A stretch of 64,000 nucleotides of DNA, taken from the NCBI RefSeq assembly GCF_004303025.1, contig NZ_PJQW01000004.1, forward strand, positions 193,183 through 257,182, in the 5' to 3' direction. Shown here piece after piece: positions 38,659 to 51,546 of the stretch; the stretch's first letter is position 1; every line of letters starts with the position of its first letter. The notes under the pieces are model-generated. The model worked only from the letters and a program-made list of their open reading frames with translations. It did not search any database and was not told where the DNA came from. A program made the translations under genes and the position numbers. Origin of the DNA: Flavobacterium sp. J27 (GTDB taxonomy: Bacteria > Bacteroidota > Bacteroidia > Flavobacteriales > Flavobacteriaceae).

Positions 38659-39312
38659 CTATTCAATACAAACAATTTTGTTTTTTATGGCATAAAGAAC
38701 TAACCCAATTCTGGTTTTTATTTCTAATTTACAAAATAAGTTTTCTCTGTAACCATCAATGGTTTTTGGGCTTAAGCACATTTCATCTGCAATTTCTTTG
38801 TATGTTTTTTCTGTGCATGCATGTTTAATAAACACAATTTCCTTGTCTTTTAATTCGTGTTTTTGATTATTATTATCCAAACGATTTACTAAAAGTCCAG
38901 AAACTAATTCTGTAAAGAAAAAACCTTTGTCAGAAACCGTTTTTAAGGCTTCTTCAAATATTTGAGGAGAAGTATCTTTTAAAAGATACCCTTTAGCACC
39001 ATGTTTAATCATTTTAATAATAGTTTCTTCATCATCATTTACAGACAATGCAATCACTTTTAAATCTTCTCTATTGCTCTTAATCCACTCCATGGTTTTA
39101 AGGCCATCTAAAACAGGCATGTTAACATCCAAAAGGACTAATTCAATCTCATCTGTGTCAATTTTGTTAGCCTGTACACTATCAATAAAATCTTTGCCAT
39201 TTTCATAATTATCAACTACTATAAAATCATTAAAACTATTAATTAGATATTTTAATGATTGAGAGAATAATAAATGATCATCAATTATTATTACTTTTTT
39301 CTTTGTCTTCAT
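38659..39312 (-). CDS. LuxR/NarL-type response regulator
   Basis: A 217-residue regulator. The receiver domain has the acidic pair D11-D12, phospho-acceptor D62 in LVLLDVNMPVLDG, the conserved Ser/Thr in VIALSVNDDEE, and Lys in KGYLLKDTSPQ. The C-terminal LuxR-type helix-turn-helix is at about residues 150-205 (YKEIADEMCLSPKTIDGYRE). It is transcribed as the last gene of the lipoprotein/7TM/kinase operon, overlapping the kinase gene by 32 bases, so the two are translationally coupled. A GC-rich palindrome upstream of the operon (41369-41391) is a candidate binding site. Confidence 0.9.
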   Translation of the reverse strand: MKTKKKVIIIDDHLLFSQSLKYLINSFNDFIVVDNYENGKDFIDSVQANKIDTDEIELVLLDVNMPVLDGLKTMEWIKSNREDLKVIALSVNDDEETIIKMIKHGAKGYLLKDTSPQIFEEALKTVSDKGFFFTELVSGLLVNRLDNNNQKHELKDKEIVFIKHACTEKTYKEIADEMCLSPKTIDGYRENLFCKLEIKTRIGLVLYAIKNKIVCIE

Positions 39313-40087
39313 TTTGTTTGTTTAAGTTGTATTGTAAGAAAATTTCAGTTCCGTTTTCATTTGAATTTAGAGTCAAATTGGCGCCAATCAATTTTGCTCT
39401 AAACTTGATATTATTTAAACCTAAGCCTTTGTGATTTTGATTAGAATCAAAACCAATACCAAAGTCTTTTAAATTAATTGTGAGTAGGTCTTCATTACAA
39501 TTAATGTTCATTTCTATTTTTTTACTCGAAGAATGTTTGAGACTATTATGTATAGATTCCTGAAAAATACGATATAAAATTAATTCATGTTCTATATTTA
39601 TTTTAGGGAATTCGCAATTAATGTTCAATTTACAGTCTATATTTTTTAATTTTTCTATTCTTTTGAAATCATTTTCAATAGATTCAATAAAGTTAGTATT
39701 TATTAGATTATCTTTATTAATAATTCTTGATAAAATTCGTATTTCGTCTAACGATTTTGCCATAACCGTTTTAACTTCCAGAAGTTCAGCTTTGCTAACA
39801 GTTTCTTCTTTTTGAGCATACATATTTAATTGCATAATAGCAACAGAAATAATTTGACCAATATTGTCATGTAGTTCTTTGCTTATTTCCGTTAATGTTT
39901 GGTCTTTTATTTCTACTCGTGTTTTGATAAGTTCAGATTGAAAATGAATTTCAGATTCCATTTTATCAATCAAAAATTGTGTTTTTTTCTTCTGAAAAAA
40001 GAAAAATAAAACAAATAAAATGACAAGTAAAGTAAAAAATACAATACTTAACGAAATGACTAATAATTGTATTTCTTCTCTGTCCAT
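39281..40087 (-). CDS. Sensor histidine kinase (HisKA_3 type)
   Basis: A 268-residue kinase starting at the ATG at 40085-40087; a longer reading to 40108 adds seven residues that overlap the neighbour. One membrane helix lies at residues about 8-31. The dimerisation helix carries the phospho-histidine H73 in KELHDNIGQIISV. The ATPase domain has QESIHNSLKHS (N box) and DFGIGFD plus GLGLNNI (G boxes). It phosphorylates the response regulator encoded next. There is no extracellular sensor domain of any size, so sensing must come from a partner, most likely the 7TM protein whose gene overlaps the start. Confidence 0.9.
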   Translation of the reverse strand: MDREEIQLLVISLSIVFFTLLVILFVLFFFFQKKKTQFLIDKMESEIHFQSELIKTRVEIKDQTLTEISKELHDNIGQIISVAIMQLNMYAQKEETVSKAELLEVKTVMAKSLDEIRILSRIINKDNLINTNFIESIENDFKRIEKLKNIDCKLNINCEFPKINIEHELILYRIFQESIHNSLKHSSSKKIEMNINCNEDLLTINLKDFGIGFDSNQNHKGLGLNNIKFRAKLIGANLTLNSNENGTEIFLQYNLNKQNEDKEKSNNN

Positions 40088-40710
40088 ATAAAGCCTATTA
40101 TAAAACAACTATTCATTATTAAATTAAGAATGAATATGATTACCCAATATATTGATATTTTATATTCAATCAAAAACCATTCTAAAGATAGCATAAAAGG
40201 CAAAAAAGGCACGTGAAACAATAAGTTTCCTAAGATAAACCAAAAAAAGATTGACTTTTTATAATTTAAAATATTGCTAGAATTAAATAATTCGATTAAA
40301 TATAATAATGAAAGTATAATGAAAAACAAAACAGCAAAAGCATATATTTCTGAAAGTATTGTTGTCCCAAACTTCTCATGATGGCATACATAACTAATTA
40401 TAACACCAATGAAATAAATGCAAATCAATAAAAATGAAATTATTTTATTTTTGTATTTTTTTAAGATTTTTCCAATAATAAAAAAATATATGAAAAAAAG
40501 AATAATAATATAAATATTAAAAACATAGTAATTTAATAGACCTGTCCAATCCGTAAAATAAACACCTAAAATTTCAGTTATTGCCCCTAAAATTATTGTA
40601 AAAAGAAATAATTTTGATTTATAATTGGGTAGTTTTGACCAATTGAGTAGACCAATAACAGCCGAAATTAAGGCGAAAACAAATGGGAAATATCTTAAAT
40701 TTTCTAACAT
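40060..40710 (-). CDS. Seven-helix membrane protein of the two-component operon
   Basis: A 216-residue protein with seven clear hydrophobic segments, for example YFPFVFALISAVIGLLNW, LFLFTIILGAITEILGVYF, YIIILFFIYFFIIG and YWVIIFILNLIMNSCFIIG. The loops are short and basic. I do not recognise the family. The ATG of the kinase overlaps its 3' end by 28 bases and both are on the same strand, so it is translationally coupled to the kinase. Its size and topology fit a membrane sensor that replaces the missing sensor domain of the kinase; this is inferred from layout only. Confidence 0.75.
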   Translation of the reverse strand: MLENLRYFPFVFALISAVIGLLNWSKLPNYKSKLFLFTIILGAITEILGVYFTDWTGLLNYYVFNIYIIILFFIYFFIIGKILKKYKNKIISFLLICIYFIGVIISYVCHHEKFGTTILSEIYAFAVLFFIILSLLYLIELFNSSNILNYKKSIFFWFILGNLLFHVPFLPFMLSLEWFLIEYKISIYWVIIFILNLIMNSCFIIGFIWTEKKYNY

Positions 40711-41460: not shown

Positions 41461-42258
41461 ATGAATACTACTATTAGAGAAAAAATAAGGAATGGTTTTA
41501 ACTTAGATTTGGGTAAATTAATAGAAGACTGTTTTGAAATTTATAAGAAAATATTCCTTATTGGTGGGTTGGGTTTTTTGTTGGTATCTATTTTTGGAAT
41601 TTTATTTTACGGATTTTTAGTAGCCATGTTATATGGAGTTAGTGATATTGCAGAATGGGCGATGAAGATGGAAGCTATGCAACATGAAATCCGTTTTATT
41701 ATAGGAAATATAATTATGACTGTGTTTTTTGCTGCCCTAATAGCGCCTTTAAATGCTGGTTTTTTAAAATTATGTTTTTTATCTAAAAGAAATCAAGAAT
41801 TAAAATTAGGGGTTGTTTTTGATTATTACAAGAGTAAATATTTAAAAGATATAATTATTGGATCAGTTATTATAGCCTTAACATCTACTACCTTTATTTC
41901 GGCAATTAAAGTTTTTCCTTTTTCTAGCTTTACTATTTTTTTAAATTTAATAGGTGTTCTTATTCAAATACTCGTATCCTTATTTACCATTTTATTTATT
42001 CCTTTAGTTATTTTTGGTAATCAAAATTACACAGATGCGATACAAAACAGTATAAAATTAACAGCTAAAAAACCTTTTCATATTATCTTAGCATTAGTTA
42101 TTGCAGTAATTGGAGCTTTTTTAGGGTTAATTGGTTTTTGTATAGGTGTCTTTTTTACGATGCCTCTTTATGTAGCAATGATTTTTTCAATTTATGATAA
42201 TATAGTAGGAGTTGAAGAGTATAATGTATTAGATGAGATAGGTAGAAACGAAGAATAA
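41461..42258 (+). CDS. Multi-pass membrane protein of unknown function
   Basis: A 265-residue protein with about six hydrophobic segments, for example FLIGGLGFLLVSIFGIL-like IFLIGGLGFLLVSIFGILF, FIIGNIIMTVFFAAL, SLFTILFIPLVIFG and IILALVIAVIGAFLGLIG. The soluble N-terminus is amphipathic (RNGFNLDLGKLIEDCFEIYK). The middle has DYYKSKYLKDIIIGSVIIAL, a pattern seen in DUF975-like and glycerophosphodiester-phosphodiesterase-type membrane domains, but without catalytic residues. I cannot give it a family with certainty. It lies 37 bases upstream of the YpfJ-type peptidase gene and is probably co-transcribed with it. Confidence 0.65.
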   Translation: MNTTIREKIRNGFNLDLGKLIEDCFEIYKKIFLIGGLGFLLVSIFGILFYGFLVAMLYGVSDIAEWAMKMEAMQHEIRFIIGNIIMTVFFAALIAPLNAGFLKLCFLSKRNQELKLGVVFDYYKSKYLKDIIIGSVIIALTSTTFISAIKVFPFSSFTIFLNLIGVLIQILVSLFTILFIPLVIFGNQNYTDAIQNSIKLTAKKPFHIILALVIAVIGAFLGLIGFCIGVFFTMPLYVAMIFSIYDNIVGVEEYNVLDEIGRNEE

Positions 42259-42295
42259 TTTTTATTAACTTTGAATAAATAAAACGTATAGCAAC

Positions 42296-43153
42296 ATGAA
42301 ATGGCAAGGTAGAAGACAAAGTGATAATGTGGAAGACAGAAGGGGGATGTCTTCTGGAGGTAAAGTTATTGCAGGAGGAGGAATAATAGGTATTATTGTT
42401 CTTTTATTGCAATTATTTGGTGGTGAAACTGGGCAAAGCTTAGCTCCAGTTTTGGAACAAATGAACCAAACAAATTCACAACAAGAAACAGTTCAAAGAG
42501 AATTAACTCCTGAAGAAGATGCTTTAGGACAATTTGCAGCTACTGTGCTGGCTGATACAGAAGATATTTGGACAAAAATTTTTAATGATAATCAATTAGG
42601 TATTTATGAAAAACCTAAAATGGTTTTATTTACAGATGCCGTTCAAACGGCTTGTGGTGGTGCTACAGCTGCGTCAGGACCTTTTTATTGTCCGGCAGAT
42701 AAAAAAGTGTATATGGATCTTCGTTTTTTTGAAGAATTGCGTACCCGTTTTGGAGCAAAAGGTGGTGATTTTGCAATTGCCTATGTTATAGCACATGAAG
42801 TAGGACATCATGTTCAAACTTTGTTAGGGACTTCTCAAAAAGTGCGTCAAGCACAACAAGGAAAAAGTAAAGCAGATGCCAATAAATTATCTGTTTGTTT
42901 AGAATTACAAGCCGATTTTTATGCAGGTCTTTGGGCACATTATAATAAAAAGTATTTAGAAGAAGGGGATATTGAAGAAGCATTAAGTGCTGCACATGCT
43001 GTGGGAGACGATGCTATTCAAAGTAAGATGCAAGGTCATGTTGTACCCGATTCCTTTACGCACGGAACTTCTGAACAACGAATGAAATGGTTTATGAAAG
43101 GGTATAACTCTGGTAATATTAGCCAACACAATACTTTCGAAGAAGAGTTGTAA
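42296..43153 (+). CDS. ypfJ: YpfJ-family neutral zinc metallopeptidase
   Basis: A 285-residue protein. The N-terminus MKWQGRRQSDNVEDRRG is the hallmark of this family, followed by one membrane helix (IAGGGIIGIIVLLLQLFGG). The zinc site is HEVGHH in YVIAHEVGHHVQTLLG with the downstream Glu of ELQADFYAGLWA (residues about 168-215). Cysteines in TACGGATAASGPFYC are typical. It is a membrane-anchored neutral metalloprotease, function largely unknown. It follows the membrane protein gene by 37 bases and ends at a bidirectional terminator. Confidence 0.92.
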   Translation: MKWQGRRQSDNVEDRRGMSSGGKVIAGGGIIGIIVLLLQLFGGETGQSLAPVLEQMNQTNSQQETVQRELTPEEDALGQFAATVLADTEDIWTKIFNDNQLGIYEKPKMVLFTDAVQTACGGATAASGPFYCPADKKVYMDLRFFEELRTRFGAKGGDFAIAYVIAHEVGHHVQTLLGTSQKVRQAQQGKSKADANKLSVCLELQADFYAGLWAHYNKKYLEEGDIEEALSAAHAVGDDAIQSKMQGHVVPDSFTHGTSEQRMKWFMKGYNSGNISQHNTFEEEL

Positions 43154-43174
43154 AATAAAATCGATATTAAATAA

Positions 43175-43208
43175 AAACCCGAACTAGTTTATTCTAATTC
43201 GGGTTTTT
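43175..43208. terminator. Bidirectional terminator between ypfJ and 43213
   Basis: AAACCCGAA (43175-43183) pairs with TTCGGGTTT (43198-43206). T-rich sequence follows on both strands, so it can end transcripts from the peptidase gene and from the convergent membrane-protein gene. Confidence 0.75.
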
Positions 43209-43212
43209 GTTT

Positions 43213-43527
43213 TTAATTCCACAAGGTGCCGTCTAAGCCTAATATTGTACCTATCCAAAGAAAGAAAAGTAGGATAAAAACGCTAAAAAGAAATAGCATT
43301 AGATTTATAAATTTGAAAGCTGTCTTTTTTGTATTGATTAAATAAAATAGAGCACCTCCAATAGAAGTTATAAAAGGAGTAACAACTAAAGGTCTGACAA
43401 ACCAAACTTTTCCCCACGTTGGGTTTGGATTAGGTACACTAAAGATTAATAGTAAAATAATTATCAAGGCTACTATTGCACCTGCAATAGCAAATTTAAA
43501 CACATTAGAAATGGAGATTGTATGCAT
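43213..43527 (-). CDS. Small three-helix membrane protein
   Basis: A 104-residue protein with three hydrophobic segments (FAIAGAIVALIIILLLIF, PLVVTPFITSIGGALFYLI, INLMLFLFSVFILLFFLW). Similar small proteins in flavobacteria are sometimes labelled KefB-like potassium transporter, but nothing here supports a transport activity. It is the last gene of the leftward envelope cluster, 12 bases after creD. Its frame and codon use match the neighbours. Function unknown. Confidence 0.65.
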   Translation of the reverse strand: MHTISISNVFKFAIAGAIVALIIILLLIFSVPNPNPTWGKVWFVRPLVVTPFITSIGGALFYLINTKKTAFKFINLMLFLFSVFILLFFLWIGTILGLDGTLWN

Positions 43528-43539
43528 AGAATTTTCTTT

Positions 43540-44901
43540 TTAGTTATTATGCCAATCAATCTTTCTAGAAAAATACATTACGGCTCCTAAAATTAAGAAT
43601 AATCCAATACTTCCTACCAATAAGGCATAGTTTTCTAATTGTATTATCACAAAAATAAAACTATATAAAACACTTAAAGATGCTGCAATGAACAATGGGA
43701 ATTTCTTTTCTTTTAAAACAGAAATAGAGTAGAGTAGTAACATGATGATAACGGCACTCGCAGCAATACTATAGGCAATTGTAAAACTAGAGTGTTCAGT
43801 TATCGATATTAATAAAGTATAAAACATAATTAAAGCTAATCCAATCATCGTATATTGAAAAATATGAATACTTTTTTTACTAATGGTTTGTATTAGGAAA
43901 AATATTAAAAATGTTAATCCAATAACTAAGAAACCATATTTTGAAGCACGTTCGTTTTGTTGGTATTGATCAACGGTTTCAATCAATTTAACACCATAAG
44001 AATAATTGTTTAACTCTGGGATTTTAGTATCATATTGTTGTGAAAAAGGACGATTAATATGTAATATTTTCCAATCAGCATGAAAGTTTTTAGAAGTAAT
44101 TTGCTTTGTAGTATCATTCGCAGCAAAACTACCTATAAAACTTGGTGAATCCCAATTAGCATTAATGCTTGTAGTAGTAGTTTTTCCAACAGGCACAAAT
44201 TGAATGTTATCACTACCATTATATTTCATGTCAAAATTAAAAGTAATCATTTGATTGGGAACATATGTAAAAGTTTCCGTTTCCAATGTGCCAAAGTAGT
44301 GGTCTTCATCGGGTTTAGATTCCAAACTGAACTTCTTTTTGTTTAGGGTAATTTTTAAATCACTTTTTATGCTTTTCAAATTGGTAGTTTTGATTAGTAT
44401 AGATGCTTTATCCCAAAGTACATCTTCCGCTTTAATACTTAATTTATCTAGAGCAGCATTTTCAAAATTTCCGTTGAACTGCATATTGGCTTTAAAAACA
44501 ATTGGATTGTAAATTCCTCTTTTAATGTCATCTACTTTAGTAACTTCCGTTTTATTTTCTAAAGTGTTCGGAAAGAAATAAGCATATTGTATGGATGCTC
44601 TTTTTTGGATGATAGTTTCCCTACTTTTTTCGTCAACAATAGCTGTTTCAGAATAGGTTTTGTAAGGAATTTTAAGTATAGGCCCATAAAAATGAATATT
44701 TTCTCCCCATGTTTCAGTCACTTCTTGAGTCACATCATTTTTACGTTCAGAACGTTCTGTAATTAGATTTTGTACCAAATTAAGAGGAATTAATAGAAAT
44801 AATGTAAGCATGCCTACCATTATCATTTTTGCGGTATTGCTTTGTAAAAATGAAGGTTTAGGAGTAACGCTAGATTTGTGTAATTCGATTGGATTTTCCA
44901 T
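43540..44901 (-). CDS. creD: CreD-family cell-envelope integrity protein
   Basis: A 453-residue inner-membrane protein. One N-terminal helix (AKMIMVGMLTLFLLIPLNLV) is followed by a large periplasmic domain with TETWGENIHFYGPILKIPY, NWDSPSFIGSF and HADWKILHINRPF, then five helices at the C-terminus (about residues 320-445). This is the CreD layout. In Escherichia coli CreD is a CreBC target linked to envelope integrity, beta-lactam tolerance and colicin E2 tolerance. Here there is no CreB/CreC nearby; instead a winged-helix regulator is encoded 1.5 kb upstream on the same strand. Confidence 0.92.
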   Translation of the reverse strand: MENPIELHKSSVTPKPSFLQSNTAKMIMVGMLTLFLLIPLNLVQNLITERSERKNDVTQEVTETWGENIHFYGPILKIPYKTYSETAIVDEKSRETIIQKRASIQYAYFFPNTLENKTEVTKVDDIKRGIYNPIVFKANMQFNGNFENAALDKLSIKAEDVLWDKASILIKTTNLKSIKSDLKITLNKKKFSLESKPDEDHYFGTLETETFTYVPNQMITFNFDMKYNGSDNIQFVPVGKTTTTSINANWDSPSFIGSFAANDTTKQITSKNFHADWKILHINRPFSQQYDTKIPELNNYSYGVKLIETVDQYQQNERASKYGFLVIGLTFLIFFLIQTISKKSIHIFQYTMIGLALIMFYTLLISITEHSSFTIAYSIAASAVIIMLLLYSISVLKEKKFPLFIAASLSVLYSFIFVIIQLENYALLVGSIGLFLILGAVMYFSRKIDWHNN

Positions 44902-44934
44902 AAGATGAAATTTTAATTATTTTAAACAGTTTTT

Positions 44935-45234
44935 TTAATTATGAAGGGCTATGTAAGCGTATAAAATAGCTATAGGGATATTTGACAAAAGAAGTAAGAT
45001 TCTAATAACAAGATCTTCCGTGTTTTTTTCTTTTGAGAAGAGATAAATAACATGTAATAGCGTAATAAAATTGATTAGTGTTGCCATTAATAAATAGCCA
45101 AAGCCAATAACCATAATTACAAACGCTTCTGGGAAAACGCAATGTAATATTAGTATAAAGGTTCCTAGTGAAAATGATAGAATTGCCAATTGTGTTGAAA
45201 AAGGTAATTCTCTAAATTGAAAATTAGTTTCCAT
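44935..45234 (-). CDS. Small three-helix membrane protein
   Basis: A 99-residue protein with three hydrophobic segments: TQLAILSFSLGTFILILHCV, GFGYLLMATLINFITLLHVIY and IRILLLLSNIPIAILYAY. The tail after the last helix is short. It overlaps the DUF1361 gene by 11 bases and precedes creD by 33 bases, so it is inside the same transcript. I recognise no family. A role as a small accessory subunit of the DUF1361 or CreD protein is only a guess from position. Confidence 0.65.
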   Translation of the reverse strand: METNFQFRELPFSTQLAILSFSLGTFILILHCVFPEAFVIMVIGFGYLLMATLINFITLLHVIYLFSKEKNTEDLVIRILLLLSNIPIAILYAYIALHN

Positions 45235-45874
45235 AAAAATTGTTTTTAAGGATGTAAATCAAATAAATGAAACTACCATAAAGCATAGAGAATAAGACTG
45301 CTTGTGTGGAAATTAAACAAGTACATGAATCAATAAATAGTTGCATTGGATTGGTAAGTATGTGCCAACTATTAAATCGTAAAAACCGTCCGAGGTAGAT
45401 GCCAAAACCACTCAACAAACAAATAACTGGAATACTATATTGTATTTTTTTTTGTGAAAAAAATAGTGAAAAGCATGTTTTAAATTCTTCTATAGCAGCT
45501 AAACCAAAGAGAATACCTAAACCAGCAAATGATGATAGCAAAATTAGGTCAAACCAAAATAGATTAGGGTTTCCTTTGGATAAATGGATAAAATCGGTAA
45601 CGATATAAAAGGAATTGGGTAAAAATAAGAGCCAAATTATAAAAAGTAAAGTTCTTGTTTTTGTATTTTCTAAAAGTTCAATCCTTTGTTTTACAAATAA
45701 GAATAGTAAATATGGAATAGCCGCTAAAAAAGCATTCCAAATTAGAAAAAAATAGAAAACGGATTGAGTTACTTTCACTCTACAGAGTAATAAAAAAGCA
45801 CAATAACAACATAAGGCAAGTAGAAAACTATTGGCTTTTTTATTCGTTTGATAAATTTTAATTAGGAGTTGCAT
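45224..45874 (-). CDS. DUF1361 membrane protein
   Basis: A 216-residue protein with about six helices and the DUF1361 signature LLFIIWLLFLPNSFYIVTDF (residues about 92-111), where the PNxFYxxTD motif is exact. DUF1361 proteins are uncharacterised inner-membrane proteins. The gene is one base after the Coq4-like gene and overlaps the next gene by 11 bases, so the three are translated together. The C-terminal helix pair (LFSMLYGSFIYLIYIL) is short. Confidence 0.85.
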   Translation of the reverse strand: MQLLIKIYQTNKKANSFLLALCCYCAFLLLCRVKVTQSVFYFFLIWNAFLAAIPYLLFLFVKQRIELLENTKTRTLLFIIWLLFLPNSFYIVTDFIHLSKGNPNLFWFDLILLSSFAGLGILFGLAAIEEFKTCFSLFFSQKKIQYSIPVICLLSGFGIYLGRFLRFNSWHILTNPMQLFIDSCTCLISTQAVLFSMLYGSFIYLIYILKNNFYGN

Positions 45875-45875
45875 A

Positions 45876-46331
45876 TTAATTAATGTTAAAAGTGGTTCGA
45901 AGGGTGTGAACGGGTATAGAAAGCATTTTATAAAAATCTAAATCATAAAAACGATGGGCTTTCTTTCCTTTTTCGTATTGATTCAAATAGTAATTTATTT
46001 GTTTCGGGTAGAAGAGAAGTCCGGTAGTGATTACCAGAAATAGATACAAGCTTTTTTTTCCATTACCTAGCAGAAAATATTGCATACCTATTTCTTCTAC
46101 CACAGAAACACCTGTGTTTGTTAAAACATGAATTACATCATGATCCTCTAGTTTTTCTTGAATTTCAAAATTATAGCGCAACAGGAAGTTGCCTAATTCA
46201 TAGCCTAATGAGGCTTTTGGATGAGCAATTAATTCGTCACTTGTGGTATTCCATGGACGATTCTTTTTAAACCATTTTTGATATGGTTTTTTGCTAAGTT
46301 CATACATTTTTTCAATAAATTTATCTTTCAT
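45876..46331 (-). CDS. Coq4-like protein
   Basis: A 151-residue protein with the Coq4 metal-binding motif HDxxH followed by Glu: HDVIHVLTNTGVSVVEE (residues about 63-79). The preceding helix, SLGYELGNFLLRYNFEIQE, and the later FYDLDFYKM also fit. In eukaryotes Coq4 takes part in ubiquinone synthesis, but flavobacteria use menaquinone, so the role here must differ or concern another quinone or lipid. It starts just after a dyad (46346-46362) that matches one in front of the gene at 47944. It is the first of a coupled set with DUF1361 and the small membrane protein. Confidence 0.72.
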   Translation of the reverse strand: MKDKFIEKMYELSKKPYQKWFKKNRPWNTTSDELIAHPKASLGYELGNFLLRYNFEIQEKLEDHDVIHVLTNTGVSVVEEIGMQYFLLGNGKKSLYLFLVITTGLLFYPKQINYYLNQYEKGKKAHRFYDLDFYKMLSIPVHTLRTTFNIN

Positions 46332-46345
46332 ATATTTTTTAAAGT

Positions 46346-46362
46346 ACTTTGAATTTCAAAGT
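46346..46362. promoter_or_regulatory. Candidate operator in front of the Coq4-like gene
   Basis: ACTTTGAA (46346-46353) and TTCAAAGT (46355-46362) are perfect complements around a single T. It lies 14 bases upstream of the Coq4-like start codon and matches the ACTTTG...CAAAGT half-sites of the dyad at 47952-47970. The winged-helix gene at 46383 lies right beside it. Confidence 0.6.
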
Positions 46363-46382
46363 TGTTAAATAAAAAAATAGGT

Positions 46383-46679
46383 TTAACTATTTGAGATTAA
46401 TTTTTCTAATGCTTCAATGTGCTCCTGAAAGGCTTTTTTACCTTCTTTAGTAGCGATATATTTTGTATTGGGTTTTCTGCCAATAAAGTGTTTTTCAACA
46501 GTGATATAGTTTTCGTTTTCCAAAGCTTTCGCATGACTAGCTAAATTACCATCGGTAACACCTAATAATTCTTTTAAAGTTGAAAAATCAGCATTTTCAT
46601 TTACCATTAACACCGACATGATTCCCAAACGAATTCGGTGATCAAAGGCTTTGTTAATATTTTGAATGATATTTTTCAC
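46383..46679 (-). CDS. Winged-helix transcriptional regulator
   Basis: A 98-residue protein of the HTH_34/winged-helix type. The core has HRIRLGIMSVLMVNENADF, then the recognition region STLKELLGVTDGNLASHAKA, and the wing ENENYITVEKHFIGRKPNTK. There is no ligand or cofactor domain. It is 18 bases after the SanA-like gene and 51 bases before the Coq4-like gene, on the same strand. Two perfect dyads with the same ACTTTG/CAAAGT half-sites lie in front of its own operon's first gene (47944) and of the Coq4-like gene. It is therefore the likely autoregulator of the cluster. Confidence 0.88.
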   Translation of the reverse strand: MKNIIQNINKAFDHRIRLGIMSVLMVNENADFSTLKELLGVTDGNLASHAKALENENYITVEKHFIGRKPNTKYIATKEGKKAFQEHIEALEKLISNS

Positions 46680-46697
46680 TATAATTGATTTTTATTA

Positions 46698-47321
46698 CTA
46701 TTCGATTGCAATTTTTGGACCTAAAAATTTTGGTTTTACTTTAAAAAGGATATCGATAAATACTTTTGTACGCGCTAAGTATTCTCTAGCTTTTACTCTA
46801 AAACCATACTTTTTAGAGACATCTTTTGCATTGTATGCAATCACATTCATGTTGTTTTTTGAGGCTATATATAAAGCTCGTTCATTATGAAATTCTTGCG
46901 AAATTAGAGTAAAATTGGTTAATCCAAAAACTTCTTTTGCTCTAATAACGGAATCTAATGTTCTAAAACCGGCATAGTCCAAAACAATTCTATCTTCTGG
47001 TATACCTTGCGCAATCAATTCATTTTTAAAATCGGTAGGTTCATCATAATCAAAACGGCTATTATCACCGCTAACTAAAATATATTCAATTTTGCATTCT
47101 TTATATAAAGTTACAGTGGCTTCTATACGGTACTTAAAATAATGATTCAAAGTCCCATTTTTTAAATATTTCCCTGTGCCTAAGACTACACCAACTTTAT
47201 TATTCGGAAGTAAATTTACGTCAGAAAATGTTTTGTTTTTTGCCTCATTTTTAACTTTTGTATGAGCAACACAAATAAAAAATAGAATGAAGACGCTTAT
47301 GGGAAATAAAAACTTTCGCAT
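46698..47321 (-). CDS. sanA: SanA-like DUF218 envelope protein
   Basis: A 207-residue protein with one N-terminal membrane helix (FLFPISVFILFFICVAH) and a DUF218 domain: VGVVLGTGKYLKNGTLNHYF, YRIEATVTLYKECKIEYILV-type strands, SGDNSRFDYDEP, and FTLISQEFHNERALYIA. That is the SanA (vancomycin high-temperature exclusion) form rather than YdcF. In Escherichia coli SanA maintains the envelope barrier against large antibiotics. Together with CreD in the same cluster it points to an envelope-integrity role. The gene lies 18 bases before the winged-helix regulator and 12 bases after the six-helix protein. Confidence 0.85.
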   Translation of the reverse strand: MRKFLFPISVFILFFICVAHTKVKNEAKNKTFSDVNLLPNNKVGVVLGTGKYLKNGTLNHYFKYRIEATVTLYKECKIEYILVSGDNSRFDYDEPTDFKNELIAQGIPEDRIVLDYAGFRTLDSVIRAKEVFGLTNFTLISQEFHNERALYIASKNNMNVIAYNAKDVSKKYGFRVKAREYLARTKVFIDILFKVKPKFLGPKIAIE

Positions 47322-47332
47322 TTTATTTTGTA

Positions 47333-47944
47333 TTAGATGTTTCTATCATATTTATAATACATCATACTTCCATATAAAATATGACAAAAACCAAATCCAA
47401 TTACCCAAAAATACAAACCATACCCTGAAAATTCAACGGCAATTAATCCTAAAATAATCTGGGTGATACCTAAGTAACGTACATCTCTTAAAGTATATTT
47501 ACTGGCATTTAAACATGCTAAACCATAAAATAATAAGGTAACAGGAGCAATTAAACCATAATGTTTGTTTTTTAGTAAAAGCAAAGCAAAAATTCCACCT
47601 GTGATTAAAGGAATTAAAAAATTAATTAAAACTCTTCTCGAAGTAGGATTCCAAATTTTTTCTCCAGCTTTTTTTGCTTTTTTAGCGGTTAATAAATAAG
47701 CAGTACCAACTGAAAGAACGAGTACAATAAAAGCGGTTAAAAGAATTAGTTTAAAAGTTTTACTTTCCAAAGTGATATAACGCCCATAATGAGAATTGAT
47801 TAAATAATTAACATATGCTGCACCAACTAGAGCATAGATTCCTGCGAGTATTCCAGATAAACCACTTAATGATATAAATTGAGTAGATTTACTCATTATT
47901 TCTTTAATATCTTGAATGTCTTTTAAATATTTACTTGCTTCCAT
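47333..47944 (-). CDS. Six-helix membrane protein of the envelope cluster
   Basis: A 203-residue protein with an amphipathic start (KDIQDIKEIMSKSTQFISLS) and about six hydrophobic segments, for example LSGILAGIYALVGAAYVNYL, FKLILLTAFIVLVLSVGTAYL and TQIILGLIAVEFSGYGLYF. A conserved-looking basic loop (KKAKKAGEKIWNPTSRRVL) joins the helix groups. I recognise no characterised family. It is the first gene of the leftward cluster and has a promoter-overlapping dyad directly upstream. Similar proteins occur next to winged-helix regulators in other flavobacteria, as far as I recall. Confidence 0.7.
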   Translation of the reverse strand: MEASKYLKDIQDIKEIMSKSTQFISLSGLSGILAGIYALVGAAYVNYLINSHYGRYITLESKTFKLILLTAFIVLVLSVGTAYLLTAKKAKKAGEKIWNPTSRRVLINFLIPLITGGIFALLLLKNKHYGLIAPVTLLFYGLACLNASKYTLRDVRYLGITQIILGLIAVEFSGYGLYFWVIGFGFCHILYGSMMYYKYDRNI

Positions 47945-47951
47945 TATAAAG

Positions 47952-47970
47952 TACTTTGAAATACAAAGTA
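47952..47970. promoter_or_regulatory. Candidate operator in front of the six-helix protein gene
   Basis: TACTTTG (47952-47958) and CAAAGTA (47964-47970) are perfect complements around five bases. It lies 8-26 bases upstream of the start codon at 47944 and overlaps the probable -7 element. Its half-sites match those of the dyad at 46346-46362. Confidence 0.6.
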
Positions 47971-47996
47971 AAATAATAATTTTGTATTTACCAAAA
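47964..47996 (-). promoter_or_regulatory. Promoter overlapping the operator at 47952
   Basis: On the minus strand TTTTG (47996-47992), then 20 bases, then TTACTTTG (47971-47964), which differs from TAnnTTTG by one base. The operator half-site CAAAGTA is inside the -7 element, so binding would block initiation. Confidence 0.5.
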
Positions 47997-48094
47997 GTTT
48001 TTTTGTTAAAAAAATCTCATTTTGCAAAGTAGTAACCGTTAAGTAAAATAATTGTAATATTTTTATACATTATAAATTTTAATTCATTTCTATA

Positions 48095-49471
48095 ATGAGA
48101 TTTTCTTTAGTTTTTATCATTAGTCTTTTTATGGTTTGTTCTTCAAATGCGCAATCTAATGATGAAAAAATGTTACGAACTATTTACGATGAAGCTTTAA
48201 CAAAATCAAAATGTTATGATTGGTTGGAATATTTATCCAATACTATTGGGGCACGACTGTCTGGTTCTACTTCAGCAGAAAAAGCCGTTTTGTATACCAA
48301 AGCAGAATTAGAACAATTAGGTTTGGATCGTGTTTTTTTACAAGAAGTGATGGTGCCGCATTGGATAAGAGGTGAAAAGGAAAAAGCCTATTTTGAAAGT
48401 AAAGGAAGAAAAGTAGAAGTTCCTATTTGTGCTTTAGGAAGTTCGATTGCTACTCCGAAAAATGGATTAAAAGCACCTATAATTGAAGTTATGGGAATTG
48501 ATGAAATGGTTGCTTTAGGTTCAGAAAAGGTTAAAGGCAAAATTGTTTTTTTTAATCGACCAATGACACCCATTCATATTCAAACTTTTCAAGCTTATGG
48601 AGGTTGTATAGATCAGCGTTCTGCGGGTGCTCGTGAAGCGGCTAAATTAGGTGCTGTAGGTGTTATTGTGCGATCAATGAATTTAAGACTGGATGATTTT
48701 CCTCATACAGGTAATACAAATTATGGAGATTTACCTAAAGATAAGTATATTCCAGCAGCAGCAATTAGTACAAATGGTGCTAATTTATTAAGTGAATCGC
48801 TAAAAAAGAATCCAGACATTCAATTTTATTTTAAACAATCTTGTGAAATGTTACCAGATGTCTTGTCATATAATGTAGTTGGAGAAATTAAAGGAACAGA
48901 AAATCCAGATGAAATTATGGTAATAGGTGGTCATTTAGATTCTTGGGATCTTGGTGATGGCTCTCATGATGATGGTGCTGGAGTGGTACAAAGTATGGAA
49001 ATTTTATCTATTTTTAAAAGATTAGAATACAAACCTAAACATACGATTAGAGTGGTTTTATTTATGAATGAAGAAAATGGGAATAGAGGAGGAAAGCAAT
49101 ATGCAGAATTAGCCAAAAAAAATAATGAAAATCACATTTTTGCTTTAGAAAGCGATGCAGGTGGTTTTTCTCCAAGAGGATTTTCTCTTGAAGCTGATGC
49201 TACTAATTTCGCTAAAATAAGAAGTTGGAAAACACTATTTGAACCGTATTTAATTCATTTATTTGTTGAAGGACATACCGGAGTTGATATTGGACCTTTA
49301 CAATCGAAACATATCGTTAAAGCAGGATTACAACCCGATTCCCAACGTTATTTTGATTATCATCATGCTGCTAATGATACTTTTAATGCGGTTAATAAAA
49401 GAGAATTGGAACTTGGAGCTGCGGCAATGACATCTTTAGTTTATTTAATGGATCAATACGGAATTGAATAA
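48095..49471 (+). CDS. Secreted M28-family metallopeptidase
   Basis: A 458-residue exported peptidase. A signal peptide (ending SSNAQ, residue about 20) is followed by a PA-type insert region (GKIVFFNRPMTPIHIQTFQ, residues about 150-168) and the M28 catalytic core. The zinc ligands are in VIGGHLDSWDLGDGSHDDGAG-like MVIGGHLDSWDLGDGSHD (two-metal site), then FMNEENGNRGGKQY (catalytic Glu pair), ALESDAGGF, and the final His in DYHHAANDTF. It resembles the carboxypeptidase Q/aminopeptidase S group. It probably digests peptides outside the cell. The next gene overlaps its stop by one base. Confidence 0.92.
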   Translation: MRFSLVFIISLFMVCSSNAQSNDEKMLRTIYDEALTKSKCYDWLEYLSNTIGARLSGSTSAEKAVLYTKAELEQLGLDRVFLQEVMVPHWIRGEKEKAYFESKGRKVEVPICALGSSIATPKNGLKAPIIEVMGIDEMVALGSEKVKGKIVFFNRPMTPIHIQTFQAYGGCIDQRSAGAREAAKLGAVGVIVRSMNLRLDDFPHTGNTNYGDLPKDKYIPAAAISTNGANLLSESLKKNPDIQFYFKQSCEMLPDVLSYNVVGEIKGTENPDEIMVIGGHLDSWDLGDGSHDDGAGVVQSMEILSIFKRLEYKPKHTIRVVLFMNEENGNRGGKQYAELAKKNNENHIFALESDAGGFSPRGFSLEADATNFAKIRSWKTLFEPYLIHLFVEGHTGVDIGPLQSKHIVKAGLQPDSQRYFDYHHAANDTFNAVNKRELELGAAAMTSLVYLMDQYGIE

Positions 49472-49821
49472 TGAAACCTGCTGAAGAATATATTTTTAGA
49501 CAACCAGAAACTTATCGGAAGATGTTGTTGCATATCATAGCAGTAGTGGAACAAGAATTGTCAGATTATGAATTACTATTCAAATGGGGAATTCCTTACT
49601 TTTATTATAAAAAGAAGCCTTTTTGTTATTTGGCACCCAATCATAAAAGAAAATTTGTTGATGTAGGGTTTGCCAAAGGTTTTCAGTTGCAATTAAATCA
49701 GGAATTTTTAGTTGATGAAAAAAGAAATACGGTAAAATCATTGCGGTATTTTTCTTTAGAAACCATTGATAATTCCGTTTTAAAAGCTGTAATAGAGGAA
49801 GCAAAAACATTATACCTATAA
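49471..49821 (+). CDS. DUF1801-like small cytoplasmic protein
   Basis: A 116-residue protein with the YdhG/DUF1801 pattern: DYELLFKWGIPYFYYKKKPF near residue 32, then FVDVGFAKGFQLQ, and the closing SLETIDNSVLKAVIEEA. DUF1801 proteins are small and of unknown function, some related to iron-chaperone-like folds. Its ATG overlaps the last base of the peptidase stop (TAATG), so the two are translationally coupled, though no functional link is known. A terminator follows directly after its stop. Confidence 0.82.
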   Translation: MKPAEEYIFRQPETYRKMLLHIIAVVEQELSDYELLFKWGIPYFYYKKKPFCYLAPNHKRKFVDVGFAKGFQLQLNQEFLVDEKRNTVKSLRYFSLETIDNSVLKAVIEEAKTLYL

Positions 49822-49822
49822 A

Positions 49823-49849
49823 AAAAGCACTTGAAAAGTGCTTTTTTTA
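49823..49849. terminator. Bidirectional terminator after the DUF1801-like gene
   Basis: AAAAGCACTT (49823-49832) pairs with AAGTGCTTTT around a two-base loop (GA), with T-runs following on both strands. It ends the plus-strand pair and probably also the leftward barrel gene at 49867. Confidence 0.8.
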
Positions 49850-49866
49850 TATTTTTTATTTGTATT

Positions 49867-50712
49867 CTATATTCTAAAGATACCTCCAAGAGCAATAATA
49901 CGTTGAAAGAACCAGAATTTTTGAGATGCTTTATCTACTGGATCTTTTGAGGTTCTAATATCGTTCATATTTATAAAACCTCCTTTTAATTCAGTTTGAA
50001 TAAAAAAGTGTTTGAAAAAGGTGAAATTCAATCCAGCTTTTGCTGAAATACCGTATCCAGCAACGTGAAATGCATCATTATTATCTTTCATTAAAAGTGT
50101 AGAATTTGTTTTTGGAAATAAAAAACCAGCACCTAAACCTTCTGTAACATTAATTTGAAATTTATCTGTATTAGTAATACCAATATACTTTGAAAGATCA
50201 TCCACTCTAGAAAATTCAGTATGTATGTAATTTAAACCATCGGTATGTTCAAATTCTAAAAATTTACTGTCTAAGGTTAATTCATTGTTATTTGGGTTTT
50301 CATTATAGCTTCCAGGATTTGGATAATAACCACTATAACGAACTCTCTTGTCTTGATCCATCACATATTTCATATGATCAACACCAATTGAAATATTGTA
50401 ATGGTCGTTAATAAAATAACCAATTCGTAAATTAGTTTGAGGAATAGTCATTCTTCCAGGATTTACATAATCAACATGCCATCCTTTTGGCTTGTCGTGT
50501 GCTTCTACATCATAGAGTGTAAAGTCGTAATTACTTCCAGTAAAATGAATATCCGATTTCGAAAAGCTTTCTCTATTTCCACCCCAAAAGATGAAGAATT
50601 TTCCTTTGTTGTGACTGGTGTATTTTTCAGGCATTTCAACTGTTTCTTGCGAAAAGGTGTACTGTGAAAAAACACAAAAAGATAGTACAACCATTAGAAA
50701 TGATTGTTTCAT
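49867..50712 (-). CDS. Outer-membrane beta-barrel-like protein
   Basis: A 281-residue exported protein. The signal peptide ends at FSQ (about residue 21), then KYTSHNKGKFFIFWGGNRES introduces alternating amphipathic strands such as TNLRIGYFINDHYNISIGVD and YGISAKAGLNFTFFKHFFIQ, with the last strand ending in GGIFRI. This looks like an outer-membrane barrel of 8-12 strands. I recognise no named family. It is 15 bases after kdsA on the same strand, so it is co-transcribed with a lipopolysaccharide-biosynthesis gene. Whether it is linked to surface polysaccharide is unknown. Confidence 0.72.
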   Translation of the reverse strand: MKQSFLMVVLSFCVFSQYTFSQETVEMPEKYTSHNKGKFFIFWGGNRESFSKSDIHFTGSNYDFTLYDVEAHDKPKGWHVDYVNPGRMTIPQTNLRIGYFINDHYNISIGVDHMKYVMDQDKRVRYSGYYPNPGSYNENPNNNELTLDSKFLEFEHTDGLNYIHTEFSRVDDLSKYIGITNTDKFQINVTEGLGAGFLFPKTNSTLLMKDNNDAFHVAGYGISAKAGLNFTFFKHFFIQTELKGGFINMNDIRTSKDPVDKASQKFWFFQRIIALGGIFRI

Positions 50713-50727
50713 TTGGATTTATAAGTA

Positions 50728-51546
50728 TTAAAATTGATTTATAGTTTTTCTGATAGCCACTAATTTTTTCATTAAATCTTCAAAATAATCCAAATGAAGC
50801 ATATTTGCGCCATCACTTTTGGCATTTGCTGGATCAAAATGAGTTTCTATAAAAATTCCATCTACTCCTACAGCAATTCCTGCTTTAGCAATGGTTTCAA
50901 TCATATCTGGGCGGCCTCCTGTTACCCCAACAGTTTGATTAGGTTGTTGTAGAGAGTGAGTAACATCTAGTACAGTTGTAGCATATTGTTGCATTGTTGG
51001 AATACTTCTAAAATCTACAATCATATCTTGATAACCAAACATAGTACCTCTGTCGGTTACCATTACTTTTTCATTTTGGCAATCCAACACCTTTTGTACC
51101 GCATGTTTCATACTTTCAGGACTCATAAATTGCCCTTTTTTTAAGTTAACAGTCTTTCCTGTTTCTGCAGCAGCAACTACTAAATCGGTTTGACGGACTA
51201 AAAAAGCAGGAATTTGTAGAATATCAACATATTCAGCAGCCATTGTGGCATCTTCATTAGTATGAATATCGGTGATAGTAGGTATACCAAATTCTTTTGA
51301 AACTTTAGCTAGTATTTTTAATGCTTTTTCGTCACCAATACCTGTAAAACTATCAATTCTGGAACGATTTGCTTTTTTAAAAGAACCTTTAAAAACGTAT
51401 GGAATTTTTAAAGCATCTGTTACTGTTACAATTTTTTCGGCAATTTTCATAGCCATTTCTTCACCTTCAATGGCACAAGGTCCTGATAATAAGAAGAAAT
51501 TACCGCTATTTGTGTTTTTTATTTGTGGAATAGTATCTAAATTCAT
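50728..51546 (-). CDS. kdsA: 3-deoxy-8-phosphooctulonate synthase
   Basis: A 272-residue KDO-8-phosphate synthase. It has the family motifs FFLLSGPCAIEGEEMA (residues 18-33), FKGSFKKANRSRIDSFTG, DIHTNEDATMAAEYVDILQI, and GVDGIFIETHFDPANAKSDG near the end. It condenses phosphoenolpyruvate with arabinose-5-phosphate to make the KDO precursor of lipopolysaccharide. Cys in SGPCAIEG is conserved across the family. A -7 element lies at 51569-51576, giving a leader of about 18 bases. It is followed by the barrel gene at 49867. Confidence 0.95.
   Translation of the reverse strand: MNLDTIPQIKNTNSGNFFLLSGPCAIEGEEMAMKIAEKIVTVTDALKIPYVFKGSFKKANRSRIDSFTGIGDEKALKILAKVSKEFGIPTITDIHTNEDATMAAEYVDILQIPAFLVRQTDLVVAAAETGKTVNLKKGQFMSPESMKHAVQKVLDCQNEKVMVTDRGTMFGYQDMIVDFRSIPTMQQYATTVLDVTHSLQQPNQTVGVTGGRPDMIETIAKAGIAVGVDGIFIETHFDPANAKSDGANMLHLDYFEDLMKKLVAIRKTINQF

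Follow-up and report, generated by a model that had tools for sequence, protein, structure and literature searches.

A conserved 21-letter site and a regulator–membrane protein pair in a Flavobacterium gene cluster point to a membrane-to-gene control circuit

Introduction

Which protein, acting at which site, could control the eight genes at positions 43213-47970 of the window, the 64,000-nucleotide (nt) stretch of the Flavobacterium sp. J27 genome analysed here? A sequence-only reading had described these genes as one leftward run with small gaps or overlaps, and had proposed that they form a single envelope-stress regulon under a winged-helix regulator with no ligand domain. The run itself is as described: the listing of open reading frames (ORFs) with their translations gives eight ORFs on the minus strand at 43213-47944, with gaps of -11 to 51 nt. 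The first gene encodes an unnamed membrane protein of 203 amino acids (aa), which we call head203, and the third encodes the regulator. We report a short site that accompanies this pair of genes in many relatives, while the genes that travel with them, their cargo, change. The conserved site and the regulator/head203 pair point to an uncharacterised membrane-to-gene control circuit.

Results

The site has 21 letters, CTTTG-N5-CAAAG-TACTTT, that is, an inverted-repeat core (CTTTG-N5-CAAAG) and then TACTTT. The window holds two exact cores, one ahead of each of two gene units. The eight genes look like two operator-led units and not one operon, since the same inverted repeat precedes the first gene and sits again in the 51-nt gap behind the regulator. 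Unit 1 looks to consist of head203, a SanA-like gene and the regulator, and unit 2 of genes for a Coq4-like protein, a DUF1361 protein, the small membrane protein m99, CreD and the small membrane protein tail104. A single eight-gene operon was set aside, as operator 2 and a T-tract separate the regulator from the Coq4-like gene. Below, a head site is one upstream of head203 and a post site is one after the regulator.

47948..47968, minus strand: operator 1, CTTTGTATTTCAAAGTACTTT; first base 24 nt 5' of the head203 ATG, core at 47954-47968
46341..46361, minus strand: operator 2, CTTTGAAATTCAAAGTACTTT; between the regulator and the Coq4-like gene, in the 51-nt gap, core at 46347-46361
47991..47996, minus strand: TTTTGG, a promoter-like element upstream of operator 1, its position conserved among head sites
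46369..46381, minus strand: T-tract CCTATTTTTTTAT, between the regulator stop codon and operator 2, strongly conserved in 80 Flavobacterium loci

When one mismatch is allowed, the core has seven matches in the window against a mean of 3.6 in shuffled sequence, and 4 of 100 shuffles reach seven. The extended pattern CTTTGN5[CA]AAAGNNCTTT finds only the two cluster sites in this genome, and its reversed control finds 1 match.

The search for relatives of the regulator gave 301, and conservation was followed in the best 80, a sample that leans to Flavobacterium because of this selection. An exact core follows the regulator in all 80 loci, which together contain 168 exact cores over 902,088 bases. 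The head site lies 18-26 nt before head203, mostly at 24, in 72 of the 78 usable loci. Five of the six exceptions have the site about 350 nt upstream of head203, ahead of an inserted gene for a 94-aa membrane protein; at the sixth (locus L015) no site was found upstream of head203. Among the 72 head sites a TTTG starts at -27 in 41 and at -26 in eight; we take this TTTTGG/TTTG element to be a Bacteroidota promoter element. The T-tract ahead of operator 2 was considered as an intrinsic terminator and rejected, as most of the 80 loci show little or no predicted hairpin or folding stability there and three (L061, L062 and L066) have an A-tract in its place.

The genes around the site are far less constant. 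By tblastn, relatives were found in the 80 loci for head203 (79), CreD (75), m99 (47), the Coq4-like protein (40), the DUF1361 protein (38), and the SanA-like protein and tail104 (4 each), counts that include some contigs that end early. These numbers suggest that head203 and the regulator form the steady core of the system, that CreD is its commonest target in Flavobacterium and that the SanA-like protein is an accessory.

The association extends to other genomes (site positions in the phylum, and the matches of the reversed patterns and their phylum counterparts, were counted by hand from tables). In a family set of 249 genomes, with the regulator called at E<=1e-18, the site pattern matches in every one of the 140 genomes with the regulator and in 33 of the 109 with no detected regulator. 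A phylum set of 148 genomes includes 90 with a regulator relative at E<=0.001 and 60 with a strong one (E<=3.8e-19), and CreD is present in 37. Here the site matches in 54 of the 60 strong-regulator genomes vs eight of the other 88, and the extended pattern has 122 matches vs 32 for its reversed form. Among the 57 phylum loci (L091-L147), head203 was detected in 49, two of them weakly (L139 and L140), and 48 of these 49 have a core with at most one mismatch upstream of head203; the exception, L092, has an exact core farther up. A core of this quality lies within 200 nt after the regulator in 40 of the 57. Six further loci with the regulator all have a head203 relative.

The regulator itself matches PF13601 (HTH_34) at 105.1 bits (cut-off 27) over residues 16-95 of 98, which leaves no room for a ligand domain. 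No other protein of this genome matches PF13601 at E<=0.001, and the regulator's HTH_5/ArsR score of 15.4 bits is under the cut-off of 22. The closest solved chain, and the only one at E<=0.01, is PH1061 (1UB9; E 3.7e-7). Two segments are strongly conserved in the regulator alignment, TDGNL and RKPNT, which from family knowledge we presume to be the recognition helix and the wing. All 103 head and 104 post sites of regulators with Gly at residue 67 have C as operator base 11, and sites of regulators with Asp, Glu or Asn there have A, C or T; a tree built without column 67 gives four independent contrasts, none opposite, too few for the link to be significant. Four phylum genomes of one genus (L126, L127, L129 and L131) carry a more distant regulator, at 55-57% identity, which groups in the tree with genomes of another family; a DUF4153-type gene follows it in place of CreD.

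The partner protein, head203, has no Pfam family at E<=0.1. The AF2 model, of good confidence (mean predicted local distance difference test score, pLDDT, 87), predicts a membrane bundle in which six helices follow an N-terminal one. Conservation is highest in the linker ahead of helix 1 and lowest in the first outer loop; judging by the positive loops, the linker would face the inner side. Foldseek gave no match at E<=0.001, while VIA gave a designed bundle (8qad, Z 9.1) and, as the best natural chain, 7oqz (Z 8.5), scores within the range that the tool rates as common for helical bundles.

The genes of the cluster, all on the minus strand, are listed in gene order, with the hairpin that lies beyond them.

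47333..47944, minus strand: head203, 203 aa, unnamed, first gene; predicted N-terminal helix and six membrane helices (hydropathy and AF2)
46698..47321, minus strand: SanA-like (DUF218) protein, 207 aa (Pfam/NCBIfam); accessory cargo, unit 1
46383..46679, minus strand: winged-helix regulator PF13601 (HTH_34), 98 aa, GTG start (Pfam)
45876..46331, minus strand: Coq4-like protein, 151 aa, containing HDxxHx11E (Pfam)
45224..45874, minus strand: DUF1361 membrane protein, 216 aa (Pfam)
44935..45234, minus strand: m99, 99-aa membrane protein (ORF and hydropathy)
43540..44901, minus strand: CreD, 453 aa (Pfam and NCBIfam)
43213..43527, minus strand: tail104, 104-aa membrane protein (ORF)
43173..43208, minus strand: intrinsic-terminator-like hairpin, 3' of tail104, the last gene of the second unit (hairpin search)

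By these coordinates the gaps from head203 to tail104 are 11, 18, 51, 1, -11, 33 and 12 nt. The profile scans bear out most of the names first given to the genes. CreD scores 460 bits in Pfam and 447.5 bits against the NCBIfam equivalog, above the cut-off of 275, and the DUF1361 protein scores 134 bits in Pfam; these two assignments hold, as does the winged-helix regulator. The 207-aa protein had been named SanA. Its DUF218 domain is clear at 68 bits, but its score against the NCBIfam SanA equivalog is 183.7 bits, under the cut-off of 363, and we therefore call it SanA-like. The Coq4-like protein scores above its Pfam cut-off (26 bits vs 22.9), but covers the profile in part, matching the C-terminal positions 122-217 of 221. 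The HDxxHx11E motif, which we take to be the Coq4 metal motif, is found in this protein; of its full-length relatives among the fetched loci, 41 of 47 have the motif too. For head203, tail104 and m99 (203, 104 and 99 aa), the Pfam and NCBIfam scans gave no family above its cut-off. We also considered a phage-defence cluster and rejected it, as PADLOC at E<=0.01 matched the regulator (46383-46679) to Csa3 (E 8.8e-6) and nothing else; this match probably reflects a shared winged-helix fold. About 3 kb from the cluster, at 39281-40108, is an ORF that looks by eye like a histidine kinase.

The cargo in linked loci is broad. Besides the families of the window it includes C92/YiiX-like amidases, DUF2809, MPAB-like and DUF4153 proteins, the small membrane family IAMQF, c414 and x96, and at L015 exosortase-like and MSEP-CTERM-like genes lie behind the site. 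The SanA-like family occurs in four of the 80 Flavobacterium loci, one of the 57 phylum loci and three of the six further linked loci, which were hand-picked and are from other genera. Such family counts denote presence on the same strand in the fetched stretch rather than established co-transcription, and several of the models include sequences from the loci counted. Where phylum genomes hold both CreD and the regulator (29), the two lie side by side in 15.

We also scored sites that are not linked to a regulator, one per locus, for a listed family within 1.6 kb. The 45 loci come from the off-cluster places that were read, which cover all 31 in the phylum set by hand count (the 20 stronger-looking fetched first, then 11) and a chosen part of the family matches listed; 25 fall in a strict class, CAAAG[TC]NCTTT, and 20 are looser. 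A listed family follows 17 of the 25 strict sites and none of the 20 looser ones. Only two strict sites lie inside ORFs, vs 18 of the looser sites, and the other 23 lie outside long ORFs. Strict loci with no listed family are L153, L160, L162, L167, L169 and L172, and the two inside ORFs, L170 and L184. At L153 and L172 the family scan had given the label IAMQF, which the unlinked-site scoring did not find downstream.

Most of the families behind unlinked sites are also seen as linked cargo: the Coq4-like protein followed by an m99 relative (L156 and L157), C92 (L157), tail104 and c414 (L158), MPAB and DUF2809 (L159 and L161), IAMQF (L152, L155, L163 and L166), and exosortase with MSEP-CTERM (L173 and L174). 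CreD appears once (L168), as a weak match. At L156 and L157, M28-peptidase-like genes are found close to the unlinked Coq4-like/m99 unit, together with a KdsA-like gene at L157; by eye these neighbours resemble the genes beside the window cluster at 48095-51546. The pattern is as if the unit had stayed while the regulator moved.

Discussion

How could one small protein serve both units? We favour, with some confidence but well short of certainty, the reading that the regulator is an autorepressor whose release depends on its membrane partner, head203. Binding by the regulator, its acting as a repressor and not an activator, the part played by head203 and the nature of the signal are our inferences. 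The winged-helix protein would bind CTTTG-N5-CAAAG-TACTTT, which would overlap the promoter start region of both units, so that the bound regulator would block both. Made from the regulator's own unit, head203 would act as membrane partner or sensor; when a signal arises at the membrane (damage, perhaps, or a membrane-active agent), head203 would retain the regulator or make it inactive, and both units would rise, CreD and the other envelope proteins included. We prefer release at the membrane because the site lies over the presumed promoter of each unit, the regulator's own among them, and because a steady membrane partner is present.

A wider claim is tentative, and we put it a little short of an even chance. 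It is that a six-helix receptor, a lone winged-helix repressor and a near-invariant operator form a circuit found across the phylum Bacteroidota, where it would be a main envelope-defence system and command about a dozen exchangeable membrane and envelope families: CreD, DUF1361, DUF4153, DUF2809, YiiX/C92, MPAB, SanA-like, Coq4-like, exosortase/MSEP-CTERM and several unnamed small proteins.

A number of observations weigh against the autorepressor reading. The overlap of site and promoter suggests repression but falls short of proof, and the evidence comes wholly from sequence. By itself the core shows no enrichment in the genome, where its nine exact places compare with seven matches of the reversed pattern; the seven cores outside the cluster all lie within ORFs. 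Post sites have the T-tract and not the upstream TTTG of head sites. The pattern is missing from six of the 60 phylum genomes whose regulator match is strong, and eight of the 57 phylum loci (L096 and L141-L147) gave no head203. The first 200 nt after the regulator contain no site in 17 of these 57, and at least eight of the 17 have one at 200-260 nt. Conversely, the loose pattern matches in 33 of the 109 regulator-less family genomes, somewhat above chance, since the reversed control matches in 53 of 249; diverged systems could be among the 33. DoxX-like proteins (L151, L154, L164, L165 and L171) were seen at unlinked sites only, and both the strict class and the models of the families were defined once the loci had been seen. 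Finally, the link between residue 67 and base 11 is the best of 98 columns and, with four independent contrasts, not significant.

Other explanations have to be set against the autorepressor. It is unlikely, though worth keeping in mind, that the regulator is an activator, or that another protein reads the repeat and the regulator merely adjoins it. The head and post promoters differ in appearance across the 80 loci, as this alternative would allow; against it, the site goes with the regulator in the family genomes (140 of 140 vs 33 of 109), the regulator is the only PF13601 match in its genome, and its wing residue 67 covaries with operator base 11, if not significantly. That the repeat is instead an RNA hairpin in a short leader, acting after transcription, seems to us very improbable. 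In 20 phylum head sites A replaces C at position 11 and the left arm stays as it is, so that the inner G-C pair is lost without compensation, and TACTTT, outside the repeat, is conserved as strongly as the arms in the Flavobacterium loci; nor did Rfam give a match at gathering score within 42000-49500. In favour of the hairpin, its two arms would be able to pair as RNA, and the site is just 5' of start codons.

We give equally little credit to a loose neighbourhood of envelope genes with no common control. The content of the 80 loci does vary as this would predict, from four loci for the SanA-like protein and tail104, through 38 for DUF1361, 40 for the Coq4-like protein and 47 for m99, to 75 for CreD. 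However, the sites and the head203/regulator pair persist as the cargo changes, and several unlinked relatives retain the site. The sequence-only reading had named scattered, unlinked homologs as a result that would count against it; such scatter exists in part, yet several of the unlinked genes carry their own copy of the site.

Much of the original proposal can be kept in a changed form, with envelope stress as a putative signal. The winged-helix protein would still be the likely controller, given that the same site leads both units and tracks the regulator across family and phylum. The regulon would be wider than this genome, although here it takes the form of two units with head203 and the regulator as its core. 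The expected conservation of the gene set applies to this pair and to the sites rather than to the cargo: CreD belongs by its frequency in Flavobacterium, but is beside the regulator in only about half of the phylum genomes that have both, and the SanA-like protein is rare. If true, CreD and a dozen mostly unnamed membrane families would have a common control site in a large phylum, and several genes of unknown function would become members of one testable response. The short, strongly conserved site is a handle for finding further targets by sequence.

Comparison with known systems

Searches of the open-licence literature at title and abstract level (PF13601/HTH_34, the operator, CreD in Bacteroidota, PH1061) gave no description of this system. 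For PF13601/HTH_34 no paper was found, so we are aware of neither an operator nor a regulon in this family; for PH1061, with which the regulator shares membership of PF13601, the papers found were unrelated. The parts of PMC12542696 consulted name CreD in the reference list only.

As in the CreBC-CreD system of Gammaproteobacteria, CreD is the regulated gene. What appears to exert control here is instead the CTTTG repeat together with a winged-helix protein that stands alone, a comparison made without a genome search for CreB or CreC. Loss of creD in Stenotrophomonas maltophilia is reported to harm envelope integrity (PMC4689548), and by analogy CreD may have a role in envelope integrity in Flavobacterium.

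SdpR is a small ArsR-type winged-helix protein of Bacillus subtilis, and the SdpR-SdpI system may be the nearest described logic to the one proposed here, as an analogy of how the parts would work. There the autorepressor has a co-produced multi-pass membrane protein, which sequesters SdpR at the membrane (PMC1626106). The parts differ: head203 shows no SdpI domain, given that it has no Pfam family at E<=0.1, and the regulator belongs to PF13601 rather than to ArsR (HTH_5). The cargo differs as well, and here includes CreD and other membrane proteins.

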